From contig NZ_CP115784.1 of the NCBI RefSeq assembly GCF_027913215.1, forward strand, positions 310,001 through 374,000: a DNA stretch of 64,000 nt, written 5' to 3'. Source of the stretch: Paracoccus aerodenitrificans. GTDB taxonomy: Bacteria; Pseudomonadota; Alphaproteobacteria; Rhodobacterales; Rhodobacteraceae. The notes under the pieces are model-generated. The model worked only from the letters and a program-made list of their open reading frames with translations, searched no databases and had not been told where the DNA came from. The position numbers and the translations under genes were made by a program. Shown piece by piece: positions 51,285-63,284 of this stretch. The stretch's first letter is position 1. Each line of letters starts with the position of its first letter.

Positions 51285-52616
51285 TCAGTTCTCCCGGAAG
51301 GCGCGGGACAGGCTGTCTTCTATCGGCTTGACCAGATACCGCGCGAAGGTGCGGGACTGGGTTTCGATCATCACCTCGGCGGGCATGCCGGGTGTCGGGC
51401 GGAAGCCGGTCACACGGTCCAGCTCTGACGCCGGAATGTCGATCCGGGCGACATAGACCTCTTTCGGGATCCCGTCCGTTTCAGTCGTCAGCGCATCCGC
51501 CGATACATAGATCAACTCACCCTCAAGAACCGGCGTCGTCCTCTGGTTCAGGGAGGTCAGGCGAACAGAGGCGCGTTGCCCGACCGCCACATCGTCCACA
51601 TCCGTACGCGAAACATGGGTCTCGATCACCAGCGGCGCATCGTCGGGGAGGATTTCCACAATAGCTTTACCGGCCTCGATGACGCCGCCCGCCGTGTGGT
51701 AATACATTCTGACGATAGTCCCGGAGACCGGTGAGACGATCTCAGAGCGCTCCAGAATATCGCGTGCCCTCATCGATTGCTCGCGCACACTGTCCAGATC
51801 GGCTTCAATGGACTGACTTTCATCCAGGGCGGTCTGTATATGCTGGCGGCGCGTCTGTTCGATCTCGCTTTTGGCCTTGTTGACCGTTTCCAGCGTTTCG
51901 GCGATCTGCGATTTCAGCCGTTCGGCCTCGCCCTCGGCATTGGCGACGGCACGGGCCAGAGAGTTCAGTTCGCTGCGCTTGACCAAGCCGCGCTCAAGCA
52001 ACTGGCTGCGCGTGTCGTGATCCTCGCGCAGCAGGTCAAGCTGGGTTTCCACTGCGGAAAGCTGACCGCGATATCCATCCGCACGAGAGGTTCCCGCCAG
52101 TATATTGCTTTGCAGCAGAACAATTTCGCCGTCCAGCTTCGCCTTTGCCGCGCGGAACGCGGCAAGCTGTTCGTTCATGATCATCGAAATCGCCGGGTCG
52201 TCAGCCTGATCGAGCAGGAAATCCGAGAAATTGGGGGTCTCCAGCCCGTCATATTCCGCCCGTAGCCGGGCGCTGATCGCTTCAAGTCTGGCGCGACGCA
52301 GTTCCAGTTCCCTCTTATTTGCCATCGCAGCGGTTTCATCCAGACGGATCAGGGGCTGACCGGCGCTGACGCTGTCACCCTCGCCGACGAGGATTTCGCT
52401 GATGATACCTCCCTCAAGATGCTGCACGATCTTGTTCTGCCCGGTCGCGACGAAGCTGCCGGGGGCCATGACCGCCGCCGCAAGCGGTGCGCGGAAAGCC
52501 CATGCGCCAAAGCCTCCGAATGACAGGACAAGCAGGACCAGACCGAAGATCAGATGTCCGGTGACCGAGCGTGGTACGCGGGCATAGAGGGCTTCGATAG
52601 AGCTGGGGCTGCTCAT
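51285..52616 (-). CDS. type I secretion periplasmic adaptor (HlyD family)
   Basis: 443 residues. One N-terminal membrane helix (HLIFGLVLLVLSFGGFGAWAF) is followed by the barrel and lipoyl-like half motifs (IVQHLEGGIISEILVGEGD; SGTIVRMYYHTAGGVIEAGK), with a long coiled-coil hairpin between (about residues 95-290). It links the inner-membrane ABC transporter to an outer-membrane TolC channel, which is not encoded in this window. It overlaps the ABC gene by 4 nt and is the last gene of the module. Confidence 0.94.
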   Translation of the reverse strand: MSSPSSIEALYARVPRSVTGHLIFGLVLLVLSFGGFGAWAFRAPLAAAVMAPGSFVATGQNKIVQHLEGGIISEILVGEGDSVSAGQPLIRLDETAAMANKRELELRRARLEAISARLRAEYDGLETPNFSDFLLDQADDPAISMIMNEQLAAFRAAKAKLDGEIVLLQSNILAGTSRADGYRGQLSAVETQLDLLREDHDTRSQLLERGLVKRSELNSLARAVANAEGEAERLKSQIAETLETVNKAKSEIEQTRRQHIQTALDESQSIEADLDSVREQSMRARDILERSEIVSPVSGTIVRMYYHTAGGVIEAGKAIVEILPDDAPLVIETHVSRTDVDDVAVGQRASVRLTSLNQRTTPVLEGELIYVSADALTTETDGIPKEVYVARIDIPASELDRVTGFRPTPGMPAEVMIETQSRTFARYLVKPIEDSLSRAFREN

Positions 52617-54799
52617 GATCTGGTCTCCGGGTCGTTTTCGGAAGAAGCGGTGCTTCTTTGCGCGTCAGAGGGTGGCTCTGCCTGCTTCGCCGCCGCCCGC
52701 TGCAGCCGTTCCGCCGCGCGGATCGCCTCGGGGGAAATTTGCTTCTGTTGAGATGGCCCGGCCGAAGGCTGCGCGGCTTGTGGCGTGGGCGGGATCACCT
52801 GTTGCTGTGGTGCGGCTTGGGCGGCCTGCTGTTGCGGGGCAGCCTGCGGTTGTTGTGCAGGCTGGGGGGCCGGTTGCTGTGGTGCCGACTGTTGCCGTAC
52901 CGCCTGTGCGGCACCATTGCCCTGCCGGCTTTGAAGCGAGAGCTTCTCAAGCATCTGATCCCGGGCACCGAACAGGGCGATCTGACCGTCGGCCAGCAGC
53001 ATGATATTATCGACATCCTTGAGGATGGAATATTTTTGCGTCACCACGACCACGGTCATGCCGTCTTTCTTGGCAAGTGCCATCGCGCGAGACAGCGCCT
53101 GATCGCCAGCCGTGTCCAGATTCGAGTTCGGCTCATCCAGCACCACCAGACGCGGGCTGCCGAAAAAGGCGCGGGCCAGACCGATGCGCTGTTTCTGACC
53201 GCCGGACAGGGGCGAGCCATCCGCCGCGACGATGGTTTCGTAACCCTCGGGCAGTTTGGCGATCATGTCATGCACATCGGCCAGCACGGCAGCCTGATAG
53301 ATCTCTTCATCGCTGGCATCGGCCCGCATCCGGGCGATATTGTCCTTGATCGTGCCGGGGAAAAGCTGAACGTCCTGCGGCAGATAGCCGATGCACTGGC
53401 CAAGCTGCCTCTGGTCCCAGTTGCGCAGATCCATCAGGTCCAGCCGGACGCTGCCGGATGTCGGCAGGATCGAGCCGACCAGCATCTTCCCAAGCGTGGT
53501 CTTGCCTGCGCCGGATTTCCCGACAATGGCAAGCGATGTACCGGGGTTCAGCGAAAAGCCGATGGAGTTCAGCACAACGCGCTTGGTTCCGTTGGGAACA
53601 TACAGCAGACGTTCGACATCAAGGCGGCCCTCGGGATGGGGCAGGCGCAGGCGCTGCGTATTCAACGGAGAGGATTTCAGCAGCGTTGCGATGCGACCAT
53701 AGGCCGCCCGCGACAGCAGAACGCTGTTCCAGCCCTCGATTGCGCCCTCGATAGGTGCCAGAGCCCGGCCCGCGATGATCGAGGCCGCGATGACCATCCC
53801 CCCGGTGATCTCGCCTTGCAGGGCCAGATAGGCTCCCCAGCCGAGAAGCCCGACCTGAGTCAACAGCCTGACACCGCGTGAGGCTCCGGCGAAGATGATG
53901 TTGCGGTCCTGTGCGCGAACCTGCGCCGCCATTGAGGTAGCAGCATCGCGGCCCCAGATATTCACCGCTTCGGGGATCATCGCCAATGCGTTGATGATCT
54001 GAGAATTGCGGGCCATCGAGTCCAGATGCAGGTTCGATTTGCTCAGATGCCGGTTGGCGTCAGAGAAGGGCTTTGCGGTGACCCTCTGGTTGATCATTGC
54101 GATCACCAGCAGCACCAACGCGGTGGTCAGCACGATCAGGCCGAGATGTGGGTGAACCAGAAAAATCGCCAGGATGAAAATAGGAGCGAAGGGCAGGTCC
54201 AGAAAGGACAGAAGCGTGCCGGAGACCAGAAAGCTGCGCACCTGCTGAAGATCGCCCAAAGTCTGGTATTCCTGACCGTTGCTGGCCAGTGATGCACGGG
54301 CTGCGGCGGACAGCACCGGCGCTCCAAGCCGTGCGGACAGATCGACAGAACTGCGCAGCAGCATCCCGCGGCGGATTGCGTCGAATGTCACCTGCAAAAG
54401 CACCGCGCCGATAATGACGAGTGTCAGCATGATCAGCGTATCGGTCGAGCGGCTGGTAAGCACCCGGTCGGAAATCTGGAAAAGATAGATCGGAATCGCC
54501 AGAACCAGAATATTGGTCACGCCGCTGAACAGCAAAACACCAAGAATATTCAGCCACAGCCTGCGTATTGTTGCCGGCAAAGCCCCGGCGATATCCGCCT
54601 CGGGGACGCGCTTGTGAAAGGCCGCTGCCGAGGCGTTGCCGCCCGGAGCAGGAAGATCCGGCAGCCTGCCGGCCTTCTGGTCGATGGTCGGCCCGGTCCC
54701 CTCCGGGTTGACCCGCGGCGCCTGCGATTTGCCGCCCTTCCAGCCGACATTCATCTCGGGTTCGAGACGCAGCTTTTCTGTCGTCTGGTTCTTCGTCAT
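52613..54799 (-). CDS. type I secretion ABC transporter permease/ATPase (PrtD-like) with Q/P/A-rich tail
   Basis: 728 residues. An extra N-terminal segment of about 75 residues precedes six helices (about 80-340); the ATPase domain has Walker A GKSGAGKTT (427-435), signature LSGGQKQR (531-538) and Walker B LVVLDEP (551-557). No C39 peptidase domain is present. Two features are unusual: the H-loop histidine expected after VVVVT is Gln588, and residues 630-728 are a disordered tail rich in Gln, Pro and Ala ending in acidic/polar residues. It overlaps both neighbours by 4 nt and probably exports the low-complexity protein encoded upstream. Confidence 0.93.
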   Translation of the reverse strand: MTKNQTTEKLRLEPEMNVGWKGGKSQAPRVNPEGTGPTIDQKAGRLPDLPAPGGNASAAAFHKRVPEADIAGALPATIRRLWLNILGVLLFSGVTNILVLAIPIYLFQISDRVLTSRSTDTLIMLTLVIIGAVLLQVTFDAIRRGMLLRSSVDLSARLGAPVLSAAARASLASNGQEYQTLGDLQQVRSFLVSGTLLSFLDLPFAPIFILAIFLVHPHLGLIVLTTALVLLVIAMINQRVTAKPFSDANRHLSKSNLHLDSMARNSQIINALAMIPEAVNIWGRDAATSMAAQVRAQDRNIIFAGASRGVRLLTQVGLLGWGAYLALQGEITGGMVIAASIIAGRALAPIEGAIEGWNSVLLSRAAYGRIATLLKSSPLNTQRLRLPHPEGRLDVERLLYVPNGTKRVVLNSIGFSLNPGTSLAIVGKSGAGKTTLGKMLVGSILPTSGSVRLDLMDLRNWDQRQLGQCIGYLPQDVQLFPGTIKDNIARMRADASDEEIYQAAVLADVHDMIAKLPEGYETIVAADGSPLSGGQKQRIGLARAFFGSPRLVVLDEPNSNLDTAGDQALSRAMALAKKDGMTVVVVTQKYSILKDVDNIMLLADGQIALFGARDQMLEKLSLQSRQGNGAAQAVRQQSAPQQPAPQPAQQPQAAPQQQAAQAAPQQQVIPPTPQAAQPSAGPSQQKQISPEAIRAAERLQRAAAKQAEPPSDAQRSTASSENDPETRS

Positions 54800-56895
54800 G
54801 TAACCACGGTATCCATTACGTCAGAGGAAATTGCCTGGTCTGCGCCGATCGGCCGGAACTCATTATCGTCCAGATCCTCGCCGATCATGCCTTCAGCCAG
54901 AAACAAGACCGCTTCGCTGGCAAGCGTCGTCGAGCTTTCAGGCATCAGCGGCGCGTCAGAGGACACAAGCTCGGCCTGATAAAGCAGTGCGTCGGTGTAA
55001 ATTTCTCCACCGACATAGATGTTCGAATCGACGCCGAATTCCTGGACCGTGGCGTTGTTGATCAGCACATTCGACCCGGTGATCGTCTCGCTGGTGCCTT
55101 CTCCGGCGGCCAGCTTGTCGCGATAGAGCTCAACCTGATCGGCATCGCCCAGAACATTTGTCTGCCGGATGACATTCACCGAAACGAGATCTTTTTCGAT
55201 ATTCAGGACGCGAACCACTTCCAGCCCCTTCAGAGCCGGGTCGTCCAGAACCGACTGCGGAAGCCTGAATTGTCCGTCCGGAGTGCTGCCCATCTTCGTG
55301 CCCGAATCCGGGCTTGCGTCTCGGAAATTCTCAGCGCCGACTTCGATCACCACGGCCTGATTGATCAGAACATTGTCGCTGGTGCTGATCGAGCCGTTGC
55401 TTTCAGTGGTAACCACCCGGTCATCGTCCAGCAGCACATTATCCTGCATGATCGCGTTTACGTTGATGATGTTCCCGTTGGCGATGATGACATCGTACTG
55501 ATACCCCAGCTCGGTCAGCGAAACCGAGTTCGTCGCGCCGTTCTGCCCGAATACCAGCATGGTCTCCTGAGCGTGCAGGGTAATCGATGTGATATCGTTG
55601 TCGGTTATCAGATTATACTGATCGACCCAGTTCAAGCTGACAAGGCTGCCCTCAAGCGTCGCCGTCACCCAAAACTGAGGGCCGCCATCATCGGCCTCCG
55701 GAATTGGCCGGGGATTGGAGATCGTCAGATAAGCGGCATAGTTCAGCGCTTCCGTATCGTTCTGATCGGTGCGGGTCTCTTTCGTTCCGTCCGGTCCGGT
55801 CACCAGATCGTTGTCGCTGATGATATTCGTCTGGCTGATCAGCGTATAGTTATAGACGCTGCCCGCTGCGGTTACGACCGGCGCCTGTATCCAGGCGGAT
55901 GTGATGCTGGCATCGTTGATCAGCGTGTTGTTGCCGTGCACGACTTCATGGCCTGCTTCCTCAGGTTTTGTCACAGTGGCAGGTGTGGCCGATTTCGCAG
56001 CATTCTCCTCGGGGTCGCTGATATTGGCCGGGCCGTTCCCGGTCGATCCGGTGGTGACATTCTCTTCTGGTGCGTCTTCCTTCTTCTGCTTTTCCGCCGC
56101 CTTTTTCTTGGAGGCGCGGTATTTCGGCATCAGCGCATCTATATCGGGGGCGCTTTCGACCTCTTCGCCGTCCTGATACAGTCCCTCGGCGTCCTGTTTT
56201 GTCCGGGTCGACGTTTCTACGCGCACGTCAAGTTTTTCCGGCGCAGCCATGCCCTCGAATGACCTAGCCATTTCGATGAACGCGGCCTCGGTCGCGGGAA
56301 GCTCGACATCGACGCTGACTGCGGTCTTTGCCGACAACTCCATGAGTTCTGCCATTCTGGCATCAATGACGGCCAGATCGACAACTCCGCTTTGGAACTT
56401 GTCAGCATCCAGTTCGTCGTCATCATGCGACCAGTTTCGCTGCGTGACGATCACCGCGACGGACCCAGGAACAGGCAGTTCGAATTGGGGAATGGCTTCC
56501 GTTACATCTATAGACGGCACATTTGTAGAAAATGGCGACGGAGATGAAATCGTGACCTGTCCTGAAATCGGACGGACGCTGAGCTCTGGCAGATCGTCGC
56601 TATATGACCACCATTGCGATGCCTGCGGCTCGGGCTGAGGAGAGAGTTCATAAGACGTATCCACCTCGACCGGAGCATCGGGAGGCGGCTGATACGAAAT
56701 ATTCGGAATATAGTTCGTCAGTTTGTAGGGGAATGTGTTGGCGATATCGAGCGGTTCGATCTCGACCTCTTCCGGCTCCGTCTTCAGCGCAGAGAGCTCG
56801 TCATACTCGATGCGCATCCGACCGCGCTCTTCAGAGAACTGAAATACTCCGATGAAGTGCCAGATTGCTTCTTCCGCGGGGCTGATTGTCAACAT
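54796..56895 (-). CDS. large repeat protein of a type I secretion operon, unknown function
   Basis: 699 residues with no signal peptide and no recognised domain. Residues 1-250 are acidic and Pro-rich; 255-315 is a Lys/Glu-rich linker (YRASKKKAAEKQKKEDAPEE); residues 320-625 contain related repeats, clearest at 478-520 and 572-621 (VN.I.Q.NVL.D.D.V, then S.NVLIN.A.V.E.G). Related but weaker units lie at 320-366 and 420-440. It is coupled to the ABC gene by a 4-nt overlap. It may be a secreted substrate, a surface partner of the Gly-rich protein, or an export factor; the sequence does not decide. Similar proteins elsewhere carry only the generic label type I secretion protein. Confidence 0.8.
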   Translation of the reverse strand: MLTISPAEEAIWHFIGVFQFSEERGRMRIEYDELSALKTEPEEVEIEPLDIANTFPYKLTNYIPNISYQPPPDAPVEVDTSYELSPQPEPQASQWWSYSDDLPELSVRPISGQVTISSPSPFSTNVPSIDVTEAIPQFELPVPGSVAVIVTQRNWSHDDDELDADKFQSGVVDLAVIDARMAELMELSAKTAVSVDVELPATEAAFIEMARSFEGMAAPEKLDVRVETSTRTKQDAEGLYQDGEEVESAPDIDALMPKYRASKKKAAEKQKKEDAPEENVTTGSTGNGPANISDPEENAAKSATPATVTKPEEAGHEVVHGNNTLINDASITSAWIQAPVVTAAGSVYNYTLISQTNIISDNDLVTGPDGTKETRTDQNDTEALNYAAYLTISNPRPIPEADDGGPQFWVTATLEGSLVSLNWVDQYNLITDNDITSITLHAQETMLVFGQNGATNSVSLTELGYQYDVIIANGNIINVNAIMQDNVLLDDDRVVTTESNGSISTSDNVLINQAVVIEVGAENFRDASPDSGTKMGSTPDGQFRLPQSVLDDPALKGLEVVRVLNIEKDLVSVNVIRQTNVLGDADQVELYRDKLAAGEGTSETITGSNVLINNATVQEFGVDSNIYVGGEIYTDALLYQAELVSSDAPLMPESSTTLASEAVLFLAEGMIGEDLDDNEFRPIGADQAISSDVMDTVVT

Positions 56896-56959
56896 TTGGA
56901 GACTCTCCCTCTGGAAATCAGTTACCGGAAAATGACCGGAAAGAATGGAATTAATTAGA

Positions 56960-56986
56960 TCCTGCGCGGAGCGTTTCCGCGCAGGA
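56960..56986 (-). terminator. strong hairpin between the Gly-rich gene and the secretion operon
   Basis: Perfect 11-bp arms TCCTGCGCGGA / TCCGCGCAGGA with a 5-nt loop, 20 nt after the stop of the Gly-rich gene. The minus-strand sequence after it (TCTAATTAATTCC) is AT-rich but lacks a T run, so it may be a partial terminator or an RNA-stabilising element that lowers expression of the exporter relative to its substrate. Confidence 0.6.
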
Positions 56987-57006
56987 AGTTCTTAGAAGTC
57001 ATCGTT

Positions 57007-59040
57007 TCAGGAAGTAATGTCGTCGTCCCCGACAGAGTTCGAGCTGAGGTTACCACCGACAACAGTCATGTCGACAGTGTTGCCAAGAACGTTGGCACCC
57101 ATGACGATTTCCTGGTTGAACGCGCTCGTCTGCAGAGCAGCGTCAGCCGAAGCGGTCGAATAACCGTTGACGTAGCCGTCATCGCCGTTGTTCGAGCCCC
57201 AGGTTCCGGCATTGGCGTAGCCGCCGTCTCCGGTCATGACCTGACCGGCCATGCCGCCATTGCCGCTGTCGGTGTTCATGGCATCGCCCGCGCCGGCAAG
57301 ACCGCCGAACGACAGTGCAGAACCGCCATCTCCGCCCAGGATATCGGCGATGTCGCCAGAAACCCCATTGCCGCCAGAGGCTTGCGCAGCCCCAAGGCCA
57401 GCACCGTCAGCGCTTCCGCCGTCGCCACCGGTGGCATCCACACCGCTCAGGCCCAGACCGCCAGAGTCACCGGAGGTTGCTTCGCCGGCATTTGCGCCTG
57501 CAGCAGCCAGGATCGCCGAGATCGAACCAGCGTCACCCGCTTCGGCGCCGCTGCCAGCAGCACCGCCAGCACCACCGGTTGCGCCTTCGCTGCCAGCGCC
57601 GCCTTGGCCACCTTCGCCGCCTTCGCCGCCTCGACCGACGCCACCGACGCCACCGACGCCACCGACGCCACCTTCGCCGCCGTCGCCGCCGATACCGCCG
57701 TCATCGCCGTTACCGCCAGCACCAGCTTGGCCGCCTTCGCCACCGGTACCACCGGTTCCGCCGGTTCCGCCTTGGCCGCCTTCGCCACCTCTTCCGACAC
57801 CGCCGGTTCCATCAGCATTGGTTTCACCACCAGTCCCGCCTGCGCCACCGGCACCGCCAGTGCCGCCCATAGCACCGGCCAGTGCACCGGCCAGGTTTCC
57901 GGCACCAGCATCGCCGCCTTCAGCGCCGCTCAGACCGGCACCCAGACCAGCGGACAGACCGCCCGCAGCCGCACCATCGGCGCTGCCGCCGAGGCCTGCA
58001 CCCAGACCAACACCGGTGCCGGTACCGCCGCCGGCACCTCCGGTCGTGGCGCCTGCTCCGCCACCTTCAGCAGCGTTAGCGTTGCCGCCAAAGCCTTTTG
58101 CGAAGCCGCCATCAGGGTTAGCATTGCCGGAACCGCCGGATGCATTGGCGTCTTTACCACCATCGCCACCGTCATTGGCAGCGTTGATACCTTCCTGCGA
58201 GTTGGCTTCGCCAGCAGTAACGCTACCGTTCTGATTGAAGGCTGCTTCGTTGCTGACATTCGGGTCGTACAGCTTATCTTGATCAGCCAGCGACGAGGAC
58301 TGAACGATATTGTTGCCAGTGTCGTTGCCTGCGCCGTTCAGAGCGTCGGTCAGAACTTCGGAGATGTTCACATCCTTCGTTCCGATGCCCATCGTTCCAT
58401 CACGATTGATGATCAGGTTGGACATGCTGCCGATGTTGCTGAGATCGATGTCGGCATAGTCGTCATCGGACGGCTCCCAGCCTTCCAGATCAAGGCCCAG
58501 TTCCACTTCGGTCGTGACCGTCGTATCTACATCGGTGGAGTTGGTGGAGATGTTGGTCGCTTCGTTCGTGGCTGTATTGCCGCTGGTATTGTCGTTCTCG
58601 GACGAGTTTACCGAGCCATTCAGCGCACCGTTTGCCGCGATGTTACCTGCAACATTGCCGGCAGCGTTATTCGCGGCGCTATCAGCACTAGAACCGGAAA
58701 CTGCACCTGCACCTGCACCTGCGCCAGCAAGCGAGCCTGAGCCGGAATTCGCGTCGGTGGTGCTGGAGTTGTTGTTTACATTGCCGTTTACATTGCCGTT
58801 TACATTGCCGTTACCATTGAGGTTGCCGTTACCATTACCGTTACCGTTGGCATTGCCGTTCTCATTGCCGTTGGTATTGGCGTTTTCGGACTCGCTGGTT
58901 TGCTTCTGTCCCTGACCCTGAAGGTTCAGCTGACCTTGGCCTTGAGCTTGATCCTGATCCTGATCCTGATCCTGATCTTGCTTCTGCTTCTGGTTGTCGA
59001 AGGGGAACGCAAACATGTTCATATTGCGATTGCCAGACAT
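57007..59040 (-). CDS. Gly/Asn/Gln-rich low-complexity protein, probable type I secretion substrate
   Basis: 677 residues, strongly acidic and almost free of aromatics. Layout: 17-47 Gln/Asp repeats (DQDQDQDQ); 48-92 Asn/Gly repeats (NGNGNGNGN, NVNGNVNGNVN); 98-175 Asn/Ala/Ser-rich; 180-245 a non-repetitive acidic part (LEGWEPSDDDYADIDLSNIG); 290-500 GGX triads; 560-677 a mixed C-terminal part ending in SSNSVGDDDITS. No signal peptide and no canonical RTX GGxGxDxxx nonapeptides. The ATG at 59040 has GGGAGA upstream. It heads the operon that holds the type I exporter, so export by it is likely. GGX triads can form polyglycine II bundles, suggesting a fibrous surface or matrix protein. Confidence 0.85.
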   Translation of the reverse strand: MSGNRNMNMFAFPFDNQKQKQDQDQDQDQDQAQGQGQLNLQGQGQKQTSESENANTNGNENGNANGNGNGNGNLNGNGNVNGNVNGNVNNNSSTTDANSGSGSLAGAGAGAGAVSGSSADSAANNAAGNVAGNIAANGALNGSVNSSENDNTSGNTATNEATNISTNSTDVDTTVTTEVELGLDLEGWEPSDDDYADIDLSNIGSMSNLIINRDGTMGIGTKDVNISEVLTDALNGAGNDTGNNIVQSSSLADQDKLYDPNVSNEAAFNQNGSVTAGEANSQEGINAANDGGDGGKDANASGGSGNANPDGGFAKGFGGNANAAEGGGAGATTGGAGGGTGTGVGLGAGLGGSADGAAAGGLSAGLGAGLSGAEGGDAGAGNLAGALAGAMGGTGGAGGAGGTGGETNADGTGGVGRGGEGGQGGTGGTGGTGGEGGQAGAGGNGDDGGIGGDGGEGGVGGVGGVGGVGRGGEGGEGGQGGAGSEGATGGAGGAAGSGAEAGDAGSISAILAAAGANAGEATSGDSGGLGLSGVDATGGDGGSADGAGLGAAQASGGNGVSGDIADILGGDGGSALSFGGLAGAGDAMNTDSGNGGMAGQVMTGDGGYANAGTWGSNNGDDGYVNGYSTASADAALQTSAFNQEIVMGANVLGNTVDMTVVGGNLSSNSVGDDDITS
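57634..57669. repeat. 9-bp tandem repeat, four perfect copies
   Basis: Unit ACCGACGCC repeated four times without change, inside the Gly-rich gene, where it encodes successive GGV triads. Its length is a multiple of three, so gain or loss of copies keeps the frame. Confidence 0.9.
58775..58810. repeat. 12-bp tandem repeat, three perfect copies
   Basis: Unit TTTACATTGCCG repeated three times exactly, encoding Asn-Val-Asn-Gly units of the Gly-rich protein; degenerate copies continue to about 58870. Confidence 0.9.
58950..58979. repeat. 6-bp tandem repeat, five copies
   Basis: Unit GATCCT repeated four times, then GATCTT, encoding the Gln-Asp run near the N-terminus of the Gly-rich protein. 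Confidence 0.9.
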
Positions 59041-59603
59041 TAGGATATTCTCCCTTTCGGGCGGATACGGCCACTTCATTCACAGGCTCGCAATTCCGCC
59101 CCGGTTCAGGTGGTAAGATAACAAGACAATTCGGATCGCTGAGCATTACTCACCGTAGAAACGGAGCGATCATTCTCGCCTTGCGGTTGAACCGAATAAG
59201 TGACTCACCACCCCGAACCACTCTCGGTGCGCTGATCGGCGAAAATTCGCCAGTCAACGCCCCGACAATACGCCTTGCCGTATAACCCGGCATAGCCAGA
59301 CAAACCGGTTAAGCTTTTATGGGACTAACGGCTAAGCCCAGTGTGCGTTTGGTCAGGGATACCTTGGCTATTAATACACAACCGTTATCGCAAATGATTA
59401 CATCAGATAGTCAGTATAATACTAAACCTATTGGCTAGGTCGATTTACGGATATTTTAATTTAATTAGATGAAAATGCTCAAAATATCTTTGAGCGTGAG
59501 TAAATTGTGTTAACATGTGGTTTATCGACGGTTGGGGTGGCCGGAGAAATAGGTGATCTAACCTAAACTAGTTCAGTATCCTAAGGCGGACAGGATAGTT
59601 AAA
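59041..59603. promoter_or_regulatory. AT-rich divergent regulatory region between the Gly-rich gene and the LuxR gene
   Basis: 563 bp without a gene, clearly richer in A and T than the rest. A palindrome AGTATAATACT (59413-59423) contains a perfect TATAAT on the plus strand and TATTAT on the minus strand, though no good -35 box is spaced from it. The hexamer TGGCTA occurs at 59365-59370 and 59432-59437 and in reverse at 59293-59298 (TAGCCA), with CGGCTA at 59329-59334. These are possible operator half-sites for the neighbouring regulator. Promoter and operator roles are inferred. Confidence 0.5.
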
Positions 59604-60296
59604 ATGACGACAATCTCATTTAATGATTCGAATAAATTTAAGGCTGCCAGCCCTGTTCCCATAGGCGCAGCCGTCGTCTTTCTTGGAAGCCAGTATAATT
59701 TCTCCGCAAGTCTCATCGCTGCAACAAATCAGGAGCTTGGAGATGTATGTTCAGTTGTGCTTGGCTCTGTCTCGGATCTTTACGTGTTGATAGAAACCGG
59801 ATCGCGTGCGCCAGGTGTCGTCGTCGTTGACGAACAAACTCTGATCGGACTTGACGATATTGACCGTGCTAAGCTTCTTGCCGCCCCCGTCGGATCTATG
59901 GGAGTCGCTTTTTCGAGTGTGGGCTTTGGAATCACTTGCTATGAACGAGAAGACCTGAGGAAAATCTCGGCCAGCATCTTCCCATTGAACGTACGGCTTG
60001 ATGTGTGGCTGTCGATCATCCGCATGCTGGCGCATGGTGGAAGCTATGTCTCACCCGATGTGACGGCCGCGCGGAGGGCCAGGCCAGCGGAACCGGAGCT
60101 TTCCCTCAGCGGACTGACACAGCGGCAGCTTGATGTGCTGCGGCTGGTCGCTGACGGATATTCCAATAAGCGTATCGCGAACAAGCTTGGCTTGTCTGTG
60201 CATACCGTCAAGCTGCACCTGCATAACGCGAATTTACGGCTTGGCGTCAGTAACCGGACTGAGGCCGCGATGCGTTATCGCGCGATGAAAAAATGA
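59604..60296 (+). CDS. LuxR/CsgD-type transcriptional regulator with degenerate receiver
   Basis: 230 residues. The C-terminal HTH_LuxR domain (about 168-228) is intact: LTQRQLDVLRLVADGYSNKR and IANKLGLSVHTVKLHLHNAN. The N-terminal 145 residues have the size and strand order of a receiver, with Asp76 after VVVV at the phospho-acceptor place, but the acidic pair near the start is missing (VVFLGSQ) and the conserved Lys is not seen. Such pseudo-receivers occur in CsgD and VpsT, matrix regulators that work without normal phosphorylation. The divergent position suggests control of the Gly-rich secretion operon. It is coupled to the next gene by a 4-nt overlap. Confidence 0.88.
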   Translation: MTTISFNDSNKFKAASPVPIGAAVVFLGSQYNFSASLIAATNQELGDVCSVVLGSVSDLYVLIETGSRAPGVVVVDEQTLIGLDDIDRAKLLAAPVGSMGVAFSSVGFGITCYEREDLRKISASIFPLNVRLDVWLSIIRMLAHGGSYVSPDVTAARRARPAEPELSLSGLTQRQLDVLRLVADGYSNKRIANKLGLSVHTVKLHLHNANLRLGVSNRTEAAMRYRAMKK

Positions 60297-60820
60297 GCGA
60301 TCAGCCCCAAGGGGCAGGGGCGCCTCAGGCCGACGGGGAATCGAATCTGGATGCGGTGCTTCTGCGCGTCGGGCGCCTTAACTACGCCTGGAGCAACACG
60401 GAGAGCCTGCTGATCCACCTTCTCGCGGGGCTTTCGGGAATGGAGCAGGATGCTGCGGTCGTTGTTTTTCTTTCGGTTTCTTCGACACGCGGCAGAATCG
60501 AGATGGTCGAGAGGCTGGCGAAGCTGCGCCTTCCCGAAGGTGAAGAGCAGAGCGAGCTTCTTGAACTGACAGCAAGATTCACCAAGCTGTCAGCCGTAAG
60601 AAATCGCTATAATCACAGTATTTGGTCCTTTGAGGATGATGGATCGGTTTCGACTATTCTTATGCGCATCGCAGATCGTCGGAACCGCATTCATATGGGT
60701 AAGCGCCAGAATCTTGGTGGGGACGAGCTTTCACGGTTGGATCAAGATCTTGATATGATGTCCGGTCTGAATCGGAATATATGGCAGTTTTTGGCTAAAT
60801 ACGATTACCCGATATCTTGA
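60293..60820 (+). CDS. small helical protein with HEPN-like RNxxxH motif
   Basis: 175 residues, nearly all helical, no signal peptide. Near residue 103 it has AVRNRYNHSIW, in which R103-N104-(x3)-H108 matches the RNxxxH catalytic motif of HEPN-fold RNases, at a place in the helix order where that motif is expected. HEPN proteins act in toxin-antitoxin, defence and RNA-processing systems; many HEPN-like proteins are inactive. It overlaps the LuxR gene by 4 nt (ATGA), so the two are translated together. The assignment rests on one short motif and predicted helices. Confidence 0.65.
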   Translation: MSDQPQGAGAPQADGESNLDAVLLRVGRLNYAWSNTESLLIHLLAGLSGMEQDAAVVVFLSVSSTRGRIEMVERLAKLRLPEGEEQSELLELTARFTKLSAVRNRYNHSIWSFEDDGSVSTILMRIADRRNRIHMGKRQNLGGDELSRLDQDLDMMSGLNRNIWQFLAKYDYPIS

Positions 60821-61122
60821 TCGGAAAACGTCTGGAGAATATGTATAATCATTTCCGTGATTGATTTATACTGTGAGTATCTGACGTAAATCTTATGATG
60901 CTTAATTAATTAATTGGGCTTGTGGGGCCGCTTTAACAATCCGCTTTAAGATGAGGGAATCATTTCGGCTGAAAGCGGATGTTGTCAAAAGATTAAAAAT
61001 AAAAACGCAAAAATAAACGAATATATTCCCCGGTATCCTCAGGAGGACAGCCTGCAGCTTTGGTAAACTTCAGCGGCGTTTCTTTATGAGAGATAGAAAG
61101 CAGAAACGATCTGTCTGAAAAA
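60821..61122. other. AT-rich intergenic stretch, no gene seen
   Basis: 302 bp between the HEPN-like gene and the tRNA. It contains A/T-rich runs and a CAGGAGGACAG box near 61040 that is not followed by a convincing open frame. The T run on the minus strand next to 61122 may end the tRNA transcript. Confidence 0.6.
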
Positions 61123-61199
61123 TGGTAGCGGAGGAGGGACTTGAACCCCCGACACAAGGATTATGATTCCTCTGCTCTAACCAACTGAGCTACTCCGCC
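61123..61199 (-). tRNA. tRNA-Met (anticodon CAT), elongator type
   Basis: A 77-nt tRNA on the minus strand with acceptor GGCGGAG / CTCCGCT, D arm TAGCTCAGTTGGTTAGAGC, anticodon stem GAGGA / TCCTT with loop ATCATAA (CAT), T loop TTCAAGT and encoded CCA. The sequence looks like the alphaproteobacterial elongator tRNA-Met; an Ile2 tRNA needing lysidine also has CAT and cannot be fully excluded. Confidence 0.93.
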
Positions 61200-61563
61200 C
61201 CGATCACCTCGTGGGGTGGAGGCGATGTAAGGGAGGGCGCGAAGGGCGTCAAGACGATTCTGACCGTTTCTTCACCGTGAGACACCCTGCGCCAGTCACT
61301 CAGGATAGACTCATTGCATCTCCGGCGGATAGGTCATGTCAACAGGCCGCGAGTCCCCACTCCATGTCCCTCAGTCTCTGACCAGTCAAGCTTCGGAGCG
61401 GGGCGAGGTCGAGGAGAACAGAGGTGCGGGCGATGGCTGGTAGTGGCTCGTAAGAAAATCATAGAAGACTGACAGTGAAACCATGAGCAACCTATGTGCG
61501 CACCCGACTGAGATAACGTATTTGCACCAAGCCGGACCTAGCCCCTTGCGTTCTGAAACTCGG
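61200..61563. other. intergenic stretch, no gene seen
   Basis: 364 bp upstream of the tRNA on its strand and downstream of the DUF1036-like gene. It should hold the tRNA promoter. No open frame has both a ribosome binding site and a plausible protein. Confidence 0.55.
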
Positions 61564-62478
61564 CTATTCCCGCCAGGTGCAGTTCACTCGCGTCTCGCTG
61601 ATACGGCAGCTTTCGTATTTTCGCTCCAGTTCCCAGCGATCCTTGTGCACCACAAAGGACGACCATTGATAGCCGTTGATCATGAAGCCCATATTGACCA
61701 GACCGGCGATAGCGCCAAGCTCGTTGTCAGACAGTTGTGCTCGGGCTTCATACCGGCAGTAGGCAATCTCATCATTCGTCATGACGCAACGATCCAGACT
61801 GACCTTGTCGAGCGTGATATCTGTACCCTTCAGGCCCAGAAACGCTGCACCAACTGCGAGCCTTTTGCGTAGGTCGCGCAGCTCCGCCCCGGCGATCTGC
61901 TCGGCACTCGGACCACGGATCAGGCTGATTCTTTCGTCCTCGCCGCGTTCAGGCGGTCTGGGCGCGGTCTTCAACAGATGAGTATCGTCGTGGCGAAGAA
62001 ATGTCGCTGCCGTGATATTCAGTGTTCCGCCTCCCTGCGTGCCGACTACGCGGATCGGGTATGGGGCAAGAAATTCACCTTCGTCGCAATAGGTATCGCT
62101 TTTCGAAACTCGCTCTCGGCCAAATGACTTATCCAGATCAACACAGAACCTCAGATCGCCCGTTTGATAGGAAAACGGACTTATCTTGGAGTCCAGGAAA
62201 CTGGCGTCGAAAGCCGTTGCTCCCCAGCGTCCGGCAGAATCGGGATATATAACAAGTACATCGATCTGCGGTACCTCCGGATCCAAATTGATCCAGCAAT
62301 TGCCCTCTTCAAGATGAGACCATCCAGAGACACGATAGGTCACACTGTAGGCATCGGGGTTCATTTGGGCAGTTGATAGGAAGAGCTCCTGTTGCCCGGC
62401 ATTGCAGATTTTCAGAGTCACAGCCTGGCCAGCCGAAGTCAGACACACAAAAACCATCAAAACCAGCAAACTACGCAT
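61564..62478 (-). CDS. secreted DUF1036-like protein
   Basis: 304 residues with a signal peptide (MRSLLVLMVFVCLTSAGQA). The segment LKICNAGQQELFLSTAQM and GWSHLEEGNCWINL, with paired cysteines, resembles DUF1036, a family of periplasmic proteins of unknown function; the remaining 200 residues match nothing I recognise. The ATG at 62478 (after a TTG at 62481) has GGGGAT upstream. An IS element is inserted only 28 bp before the start codon, so its native promoter may have been displaced. Confidence 0.8.
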   Translation of the reverse strand: MRSLLVLMVFVCLTSAGQAVTLKICNAGQQELFLSTAQMNPDAYSVTYRVSGWSHLEEGNCWINLDPEVPQIDVLVIYPDSAGRWGATAFDASFLDSKISPFSYQTGDLRFCVDLDKSFGRERVSKSDTYCDEGEFLAPYPIRVVGTQGGGTLNITAATFLRHDDTHLLKTAPRPPERGEDERISLIRGPSAEQIAGAELRDLRKRLAVGAAFLGLKGTDITLDKVSLDRCVMTNDEIAYCRYEARAQLSDNELGAIAGLVNMGFMINGYQWSSFVVHKDRWELERKYESCRISETRVNCTWRE

Positions 62479-62506
62479 CAATCACATCCCCGCTACCGTG
62501 TCGCTA

Positions 62507-62526: not shown

Positions 62527-63284
62527 TCATAACCAGAAGATGACGGTCGCGGCGAGCAGGATTGCAGAGAAGAAGGTCTCGGGGCAACGGTCGTATCGGG
62601 TGGCGACGCGCCTCCAATCCTTGAGTCGGCCGAACATGATTTCGATGCGGTTGCGGCGTTTGTATCGCCGCTTGTCGTATTTGACGGGTTTCTTGCGCGA
62701 CTTCCGACCCGGGATGCAAACCTTTATCCCCTTGTTTTTCAAGGCATCTCTGAACCAGTCGGCATCATAGCCCCGATCGGCCAGCAGCCAATCCGCCTCC
62801 GGCAGGCTGTTCAGAAGTGCCGCTGCCCCGGTGTAATCACTGACTTGTCCGGCGGACATGAAGAACCCTATCGGGCGGCCCTTCGCGTCGGTGACGGCGT
62901 GCAGTTTCGTGTTCATGCCGCCTTTCGTTCGCCCGATCTGGCGCCCGCGCCCCCTTTTTTGATCCGCAGGCTCGAGGCCGTGCGGTGCGCTTTCAGATAG
63001 GTCGCGTCGATCATGATCGTATTGTGTTCGGCGCTCTCGGCGGCGAGGCCCACCATGATCCGGGCGAAGGTCCCGTTCTCGCTCCAGCGCTTCCAGCGGT
63101 TGTAGAGCGTCTTGGCGGGGCCGTAGTCCGTCGGCGCGTCGCACCATCGCAAGCCATTACGATTGATGAATATTATGCCGCTCAGGACACGCCGGTCGTC
63201 AACGCGTGGCTTGCCGTGGGATTTCGGGAAATAGGGTTTCAGACGCTCCATCTGCGCGTCAGTCAGCCAGAAAAGGTTGCTCAT
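62527..63284 (-). CDS. IS5-family transposase, two frames with programmed -1 frameshift
   Basis: The first frame (63284 to 62913, 123 residues) holds the N-terminal DUF4096-type region (FWLTDAQMERLKPYFPKSHG) and the first catalytic Asp in IMIDATYLKAH. The second (ending at 62527) has the second Asp in LLADRGYDADWF and the catalytic Glu in RNRIEIMFGRLKDW. The frames meet at A6G5 (62950-62960 on the minus strand), a slippery site; a -1 shift gives RIKKRGRGRQIGRTKGGMN, joining the two parts smoothly. All three DDE residues are present, so the transposase is probably functional if the shift occurs. Confidence 0.88.

Follow-up and report, generated by a model that had tools for sequence, protein, structure and literature searches.

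A 64-kb stretch of DNA from Paracoccus aerodenitrificans (NZ_CP115784.1, positions 310,001–374,000; 'the window', from whose first letter all coordinates below are counted) carries, at 51285..60820, a set of six genes that occurs as a conserved unit, more often than chance would allow. The set encodes a PrtD-type exporter, an HlyD-type adaptor, a low-complexity protein (G), a repeat protein (R), a LuxR-type regulator and a HEPN-like protein. We consider it about two-thirds probable (0.66) that this module is a type I secretion system that exports G, and probably R too, as a surface or matrix protein through C-terminal signals, tuned by a hairpin behind the G gene and switched by the LuxR-type protein. 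This reading follows from the families of the exporter and adaptor, the constancy of the six-gene set, the co-occurrence of R with the C terminus of G, the conservation of that C terminus, a fixed Asp near the end of R and the hairpin; a channel family that recurs in the flanks of some loci and the polysaccharide genes around two Sulfitobacter loci point the same way. We infer the export of both proteins, their location, the effect on stoichiometry and the regulation, and so the function of the module, from sequence comparison.

A type I exporter within a conserved six-gene set

An earlier note, made from the sequence alone, had described six genes in two divergent units, and all six reading frames are present. 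The minus-strand unit consists of G (57007..59040), R (54796-56895), a PrtD-type ABC exporter with permease and ATPase parts (52613-54799) and an HlyD-type periplasmic adaptor (51285-52616); the LuxR-type regulator (59604-60296) and the HEPN-like protein (60293-60820) are encoded on the plus strand. The exporter and adaptor assignments of that note hold, with matches to TIGR01842 (691 bits, E = 8.5e-208; cut-off, 510 bits) and TIGR01843 (380 bits, E = 1.3e-113; cut-off, 209 bits). Overlaps of 4 nucleotides (ATGA) join R to PrtD and PrtD to HlyD, as had been reported, and the LuxR and HEPN-like genes overlap likewise. No TolC gene lies nearby: the only TIGR01844 match in the genome, although on this contig, is some 0.67 Mb distant and beyond the window. 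The genome holds two PrtD-class exporters above the cut-off, the second at G000:C5:259201-260808.

We searched for R in 125 Paracoccus genomes, 394 genomes drawn from the family Rhodobacteraceae and 385 drawn from the class, and found it in 25, 34 and 2 of them, respectively, one of the last two being the genome studied here. Fifty loci were then fetched: all 24 R-bearing loci from other Paracoccus genomes and 26 of the 33 from other genera. Contig ends cut two of these, L016, which is left without LuxR and HEPN-like genes, and L088, without PrtD and HlyD. All six genes are present in 48 of the 48 uncut loci, in identical order in 47; in the exception, L110, the LuxR and HEPN-like genes lie downstream of HlyD. 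Upstream of R, 50 of the 50 loci have a G-type frame that carries the C-terminal motif described below, and the exporter is the next gene after R in every fetched contig that reaches far enough. The earlier note had counted homologues of R and G without the exporter as evidence against secretion; the exporter adjoins R and G in every fetched locus except the contig-cut L088.

Profiles of the other proteins trace the same distribution. A profile of the G C terminus picks the same 34 of 394 family genomes as R, in each case adjoining R (Fisher P ≈ 7e-50, with genomes treated as independent), and one of the 394 has two copies of G. In L083 (G356), two tandem G genes lie upstream of R. The HEPN-like profile matches 36 of the 394: the same 34, G440, in which the HEPN-like gene and a cut LuxR gene lie at a contig end and no R was found, and G240, which has a weak, remote, stand-alone relative. 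One HEPN-like match, at G257:C3:83136-83630, is interrupted by a single TAG.

Plasmid records (32 in each of two listings) extend the module to Rhizobiaceae, Sulfitobacter, Cereibacter and others. Twelve further loci were scanned, and in the six from Rhizobiaceae we found R, PrtD, HlyD and the HEPN-like gene without exception, G recognized by profile in five and LuxR in four. In the sixth, Sinorhizobium meliloti Ak57, a frame of 184 residues contains the segment GANLLSN. The R gene of Ak57 has close copies at the DNA level in Sinorhizobium plasmids, in four records when its own is counted. In both Ak57 and Ciceribacter the HEPN-like gene lies downstream of HlyD. The most distant locus, in genome G700, has two small tandem G genes followed by R, PrtD and HlyD; some 4.4 kb upstream of the leading G gene lies a HEPN-like gene. 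Together, these observations support the proposal of a dedicated type I module with a linked substrate candidate and a linked regulator.

Beyond the six genes, we compared flanking frames of at least 140 residues among 31 loci. An outer-membrane channel family recurs in five of the 31; the member in L090, the only one of the five scanned, is of the NodT type and lies just downstream of HlyD. Two further families recur, in four and three loci. On two Sulfitobacter plasmids (L123 and L143), polysaccharide genes bracket the module, with a glycosyltransferase, galE, UDP-glucuronate decarboxylase and a glycosyl hydrolase on one side and DUF3131 and a glycosyltransferase on the other. In S. meliloti Ak57 (L121), the annotation places an EAL-domain gene some 3.5 kb downstream of HlyD. 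L140 is a distant locus with a pair of small G genes; judged by eye, a FemAB-like/tetratricopeptide-repeat protein is encoded upstream of them and a kinase-like gene lies downstream.

Two exported-protein candidates, G and R

Protein G bears out the description of an extreme low-complexity protein: its 677 residues include 28% Gly, 14% Ala and 11% Asn, with Gln as a further enriched residue and no Cys, and it is also rich in Ser, Asp and Thr. The longest frame is 57007-59079 (690 codons); the ATG at 59040, chosen by the earlier reader, is the most likely start because of the ribosome-site-like GAAAGGGAG and the N termini of relatives. Near the N terminus, an alternating Q-x-Q-x tract passes into N-x-N-x (about 58741..58995). 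The longest (Qx)n run has 11 units, against 3 or fewer in 500 shuffles of G, and the longest (Nx)n run has 18. Runs of at least five occur in 39 (Qx) and 36 (Nx) of 51 G proteins, and the Q tract comes first in all 33 that have both. The glycine-rich centre of GGX runs (about 57300..58100) varies in length and make-up among relatives, and a mid-protein acidic segment could be fitted by a pattern in only 26 of 50. Long antisense frames within the G gene (57251-58740) are probably a by-product of composition.

The stretch of G that is conserved in all 50 loci is its C terminus, a segment of about 60 residues (57010..57189) of the form WGS-NGDDG ... AFNQxIVMGANVLGNxVDMTVVGG ... GDD, with 15 columns invariant when 34 of the 51 sequences were aligned. 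In this genome it occurs once, in the G gene of the module. Type I secretion signals are located at the C terminus. Canonical repeats-in-toxin (RTX) sequences are missing, as the earlier note had stated: the strict nonapeptide GGxGxDx(hydrophobic) was counted zero times in G and R of the window. Among the 50 relatives, seven G proteins contain the strict repeat once or more, though never three times, whereas a looser two-repeat pattern fits 4 of 50 G proteins and a single match occurs in 2 of 50 R proteins. Pfam, NCBIfam and PHROGs gave no convincing family for G, and its single match in a protein collection is P0150, apparently a chimeric metagenome record. The annotated records consulted list G as a hypothetical protein, and R mostly likewise.

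Twenty nucleotides past the G stop codon lies a G-C-rich hairpin with an 11-bp stem (56960..56986, minus strand). Stems of at least 10 bp follow G in 49 of 51 loci, compared with 3.5% of 2,000 random 80-nucleotide windows from the same loci and 1.6% of shuffles, and the hairpin sequence varies among loci. A consistent T-run does not accompany it, which sets it apart from a plain terminator. The hairpin may instead bring about partial termination or mRNA protection, either of which would raise G above the products of the downstream genes.

Protein R (699 residues) has no convincing family in Pfam, NCBIfam or PHROGs, the best NCBIfam row being sub-threshold (15 bits against 700). Known folds were considered, and neither a sequence search of the PDB nor a search with the predicted structure gave a significant match; the fold search returned weak rows only, with FapC at ranks 2 and 12 and CsgA at rank 18. 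The predicted model has a helix at residues 6–26 (low confidence) and a β-rich repeat domain with long strands at residues 315–645 (54961..55953). Two motifs mark these strands. In QxNxLxDxD (five copies pooled from 28 sequences) the Q is conserved at 100% and the two D at 100% and 99%, and in GxNxLxNxA (four copies) the N positions reach 100% and 99%; in both cases the copies were picked from conserved columns, which in part accounts for the high values. At the C terminus of R, the residue at position −8 is Asp in 50 of 50. On crude inspection no clear signal peptide was seen in R, which together with this Asp suggests that R may itself be exported.

A short motif connects the two proteins. 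A score matrix built from the R repeats alone scores highest inside the final 60 residues in 50 of 50 G proteins, at 31–33 residues from the end in the 13 of them listed. The median score on G, 19.2, was reached by none of 1,124 control frames and by 2 of 1,000 shuffled G sequences; the top control, at 15.3, is a second G copy, and the lowest G scores 10.3. Homology of whole profiles was also tried, and a profile-profile comparison of R with the G C terminus was negative; the short-motif test alone was positive. We therefore describe the GxNxLxNxA of the G C terminus as a motif match that is suggestive, rather than as homology.

A LuxR-type regulator and a constant HEPN-like gene

The regulator had been called CsgD-like. 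Its general plan stands, with a GerE domain (PF00196, E = 6.5e-17) and NarL as the best PDB match of its alignment; membership of the CsgD equivalog does not, the score being 36.7 bits against an NCBIfam cut-off of 250. Relatives in the alignment are 24–56% identical to the window copy, with a conserved DNA-binding half and a poorly conserved N-terminal half. CsgD and VpsT carry the cyclic di-GMP motif W[FLM][TS]R; the window regulator has WLSI at the sole comparable place seen in an alignment by eye. No clear promoter element emerged between LuxR and G, where the best-scoring 12-mers, with two mismatches allowed, are shared by 11 of 17 Paracoccus regions.

HEPN proteins carry an R-x4-6-H motif, and the product of the last gene has R103-x4-H108. 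This R-x4-H is invariant in 50 of 50 sequences (the window and 49 loci) and in separate sets of 29 of 29 and 47 of 47, and by eye it is present in the G700 protein. We use 'HEPN-like' in the sense of this motif only. The window protein has no Pfam match and none that convinces in NCBIfam, PHROGs or PADLOC (the PHROGs search also covered the LuxR protein, and PADLOC was used for these two proteins only). One of 29 relatives matches the Csm6 HEPN model, weakly (E = 0.16), and the profile finds only flagellins among PDB sequences, at E = 0.35 or worse. In uncut loci the gene is as constant as the exporter. Because it is kept where the gene order changes, as in Ak57 and Ciceribacter, and in the distant G700, it looks like a core member of the module. 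To our knowledge, such steady company of a HEPN-like protein with an exporter is unusual.

The LuxR and HEPN-like side of the window (59000-62000) has a G+C content of 0.47–0.55, against 0.57–0.66 in 2-kb blocks to the left of 58 kb. Two overlapping minus-strand frames close to the module on its right side (62527-63284) resemble an IS5-type transposase by eye, and a 305-residue frame at 61564-62481 has a sub-threshold DUF1036 match (E = 0.0018).

Readings of the module and known systems

We propose that PrtD and HlyD, with a channel encoded elsewhere for which the one TolC of the genome is the candidate, would export G. R would probably leave by the same machine, and the export would use C-terminal signals in place of a signal peptide. 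Outside the cell, G would be retained on the surface or in the matrix in an extended, self-associating form, with R as its folded partner. The hairpin would yield more G than R and exporter, the divergent LuxR-type protein would switch the operon, and the HEPN-like protein would act in control or maturation. Several observations weigh against parts of this proposal. PrtD-type signals often end hydrophobic, and the G tail is acidic and lacks a hydrophobic end, which may make R the better fit for the exporter. Nine of 51 G proteins have neither a Q nor an N tract, two of 51 loci lack a 10-bp stem after G, and the hairpin has no consistent T-run. The first LuxR profile had no match in the Rhizobiaceae loci L124 and L135, the latter reaching E = 0.0087 with a second profile, and no LuxR was recognized in the fetched stretch of G700.

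A bolder reading makes R the anchor or nucleator of G. The module would then be a nucleated fibre system on a curli-like plan with type I export, in which R forms a surface β-solenoid of repeats that templates or anchors G; the Asn/Gln-lined strands of R would bind the R-type motif in the G C terminus, and G would assemble through its Q-x-Q and N-x-N strands. The conservation of both R repeats, the peak of the R matrix at the end of every G in the fetched loci, the FapC and CsgA rows, none of them significant, and the divergent regulator gene argue for this. The motif link has exceptions that count against it, because the G proteins of G700 score only 6.7 and 5.9 with the R matrix and S. meliloti G has its best match away from the C terminus. 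We hold the scheme as a tentative possibility. Its fullest form is somewhat more doubtful: a type I-exported curli analogue in which G, with its GGX centre and Q-x-Q/N-x-N strands, is the fibre, R both anchors and nucleates it by way of the GxNxLxNxA that the two proteins share, and the HEPN-like protein is obligate.

R could alternatively stay in the cytoplasm and serve G as a chaperone or docking factor, holding it unfolded and delivering it to PrtD. The 4-nucleotide overlap of the R gene with prtD, the low-confidence N-terminal helix of the model and the presence of R and the G C terminus in the same genomes would suit such a role. Known type I chaperones are small, however, and the long-strand repeat domain and conserved C terminus of R look more like those of an exported protein, which makes this account unlikely. 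Less probable again is a contact-dependent bacteriocin, with G as a toxin held on the surface after type I export and a neighbouring gene conferring immunity. The model for this is the alphaproteobacterial Cdz system of Caulobacter, which, in the available part of its description, likewise has type I secretion and divergent transcription, and whose Gly-rich products aggregate at the surface of the producing cell (PMC5380434). In the same text, CdzC (86 residues) and CdzD (84 residues) carry hydrophobic glycine zippers and are accompanied by an immunity gene (PMC5380434), whereas G is 677 residues long, with much Asn, Ser, Asp and Thr. Flanking frames of at least 140 residues yielded no immunity gene, and a smaller one could have escaped this comparison.

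As a proposed type I module for G and probably R, the system combines a machine of a known kind with a substrate and partners that are not. Like other PrtD/HlyD systems, it has an exporter and adaptor above their cut-offs and a linked substrate candidate, with the channel gene here unlinked; it differs in that its proteins in the window have no RTX repeats, that the substrate candidate and its repeat partner belong to no convincing family and that a HEPN-like gene is part of the set. New here are the C-terminal segment of G, the two R motifs, one of them matched in G, the hairpin after G and the retention of the HEPN-like gene as far out as the most distant locus. A literature search of titles and abstract openings, with most subscription papers outside its reach, returned no description of the six-gene module.

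In curli, CsgA and CsgB work with CsgD, whose gene is divergent from the structural genes, and secretion uses a CsgG-type pore. The module resembles this in its divergent regulator gene and in R strands with Asn/Gln on one face, and differs in its type I exporter; neither G nor R of the window matches the curlin repeat of Pfam at E values up to 1. The FapC/FapB amyloid of Pseudomonas follows an export route that differs from that of the type I module. FapC nevertheless resembles R in having imperfect repeats whose core Asn and Gln are conserved, according to the accessible portion of one report (PMC12392863); its motif is another one, and the fold match to R is not significant. If the curli-analogue reading is true, the module represents a class of surface fibre that has no description in the literature searched, and if R nucleates G, surface fibres would arise by a new route.

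The closest comparison within the genus is BapA of Paracoccus denitrificans, a large low-complexity adhesin that is exported by the type I system BapBCD and acts in biofilm formation (PMC5588039). BapA shares with G the secretion type and the large low-complexity character; as far as the available text describes it, it consists mostly of Asp-Ala repeats, and its ABC, fusion and outer-membrane genes are linked (PMC5588039). That text also reports that TXSScan predicts a single type I system, bapBCD, in P. denitrificans (PMC5588039). The module is present in P. denitrificans HAMBI_2443, and may therefore have been overlooked in this species, with strain differences as another possibility. Low-complexity exported proteins are badly annotated, and a linked gene set found across many genera offers a handle on them. 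Even if R does not nucleate G, the module would still add a type I system to bapBCD in P. denitrificans.

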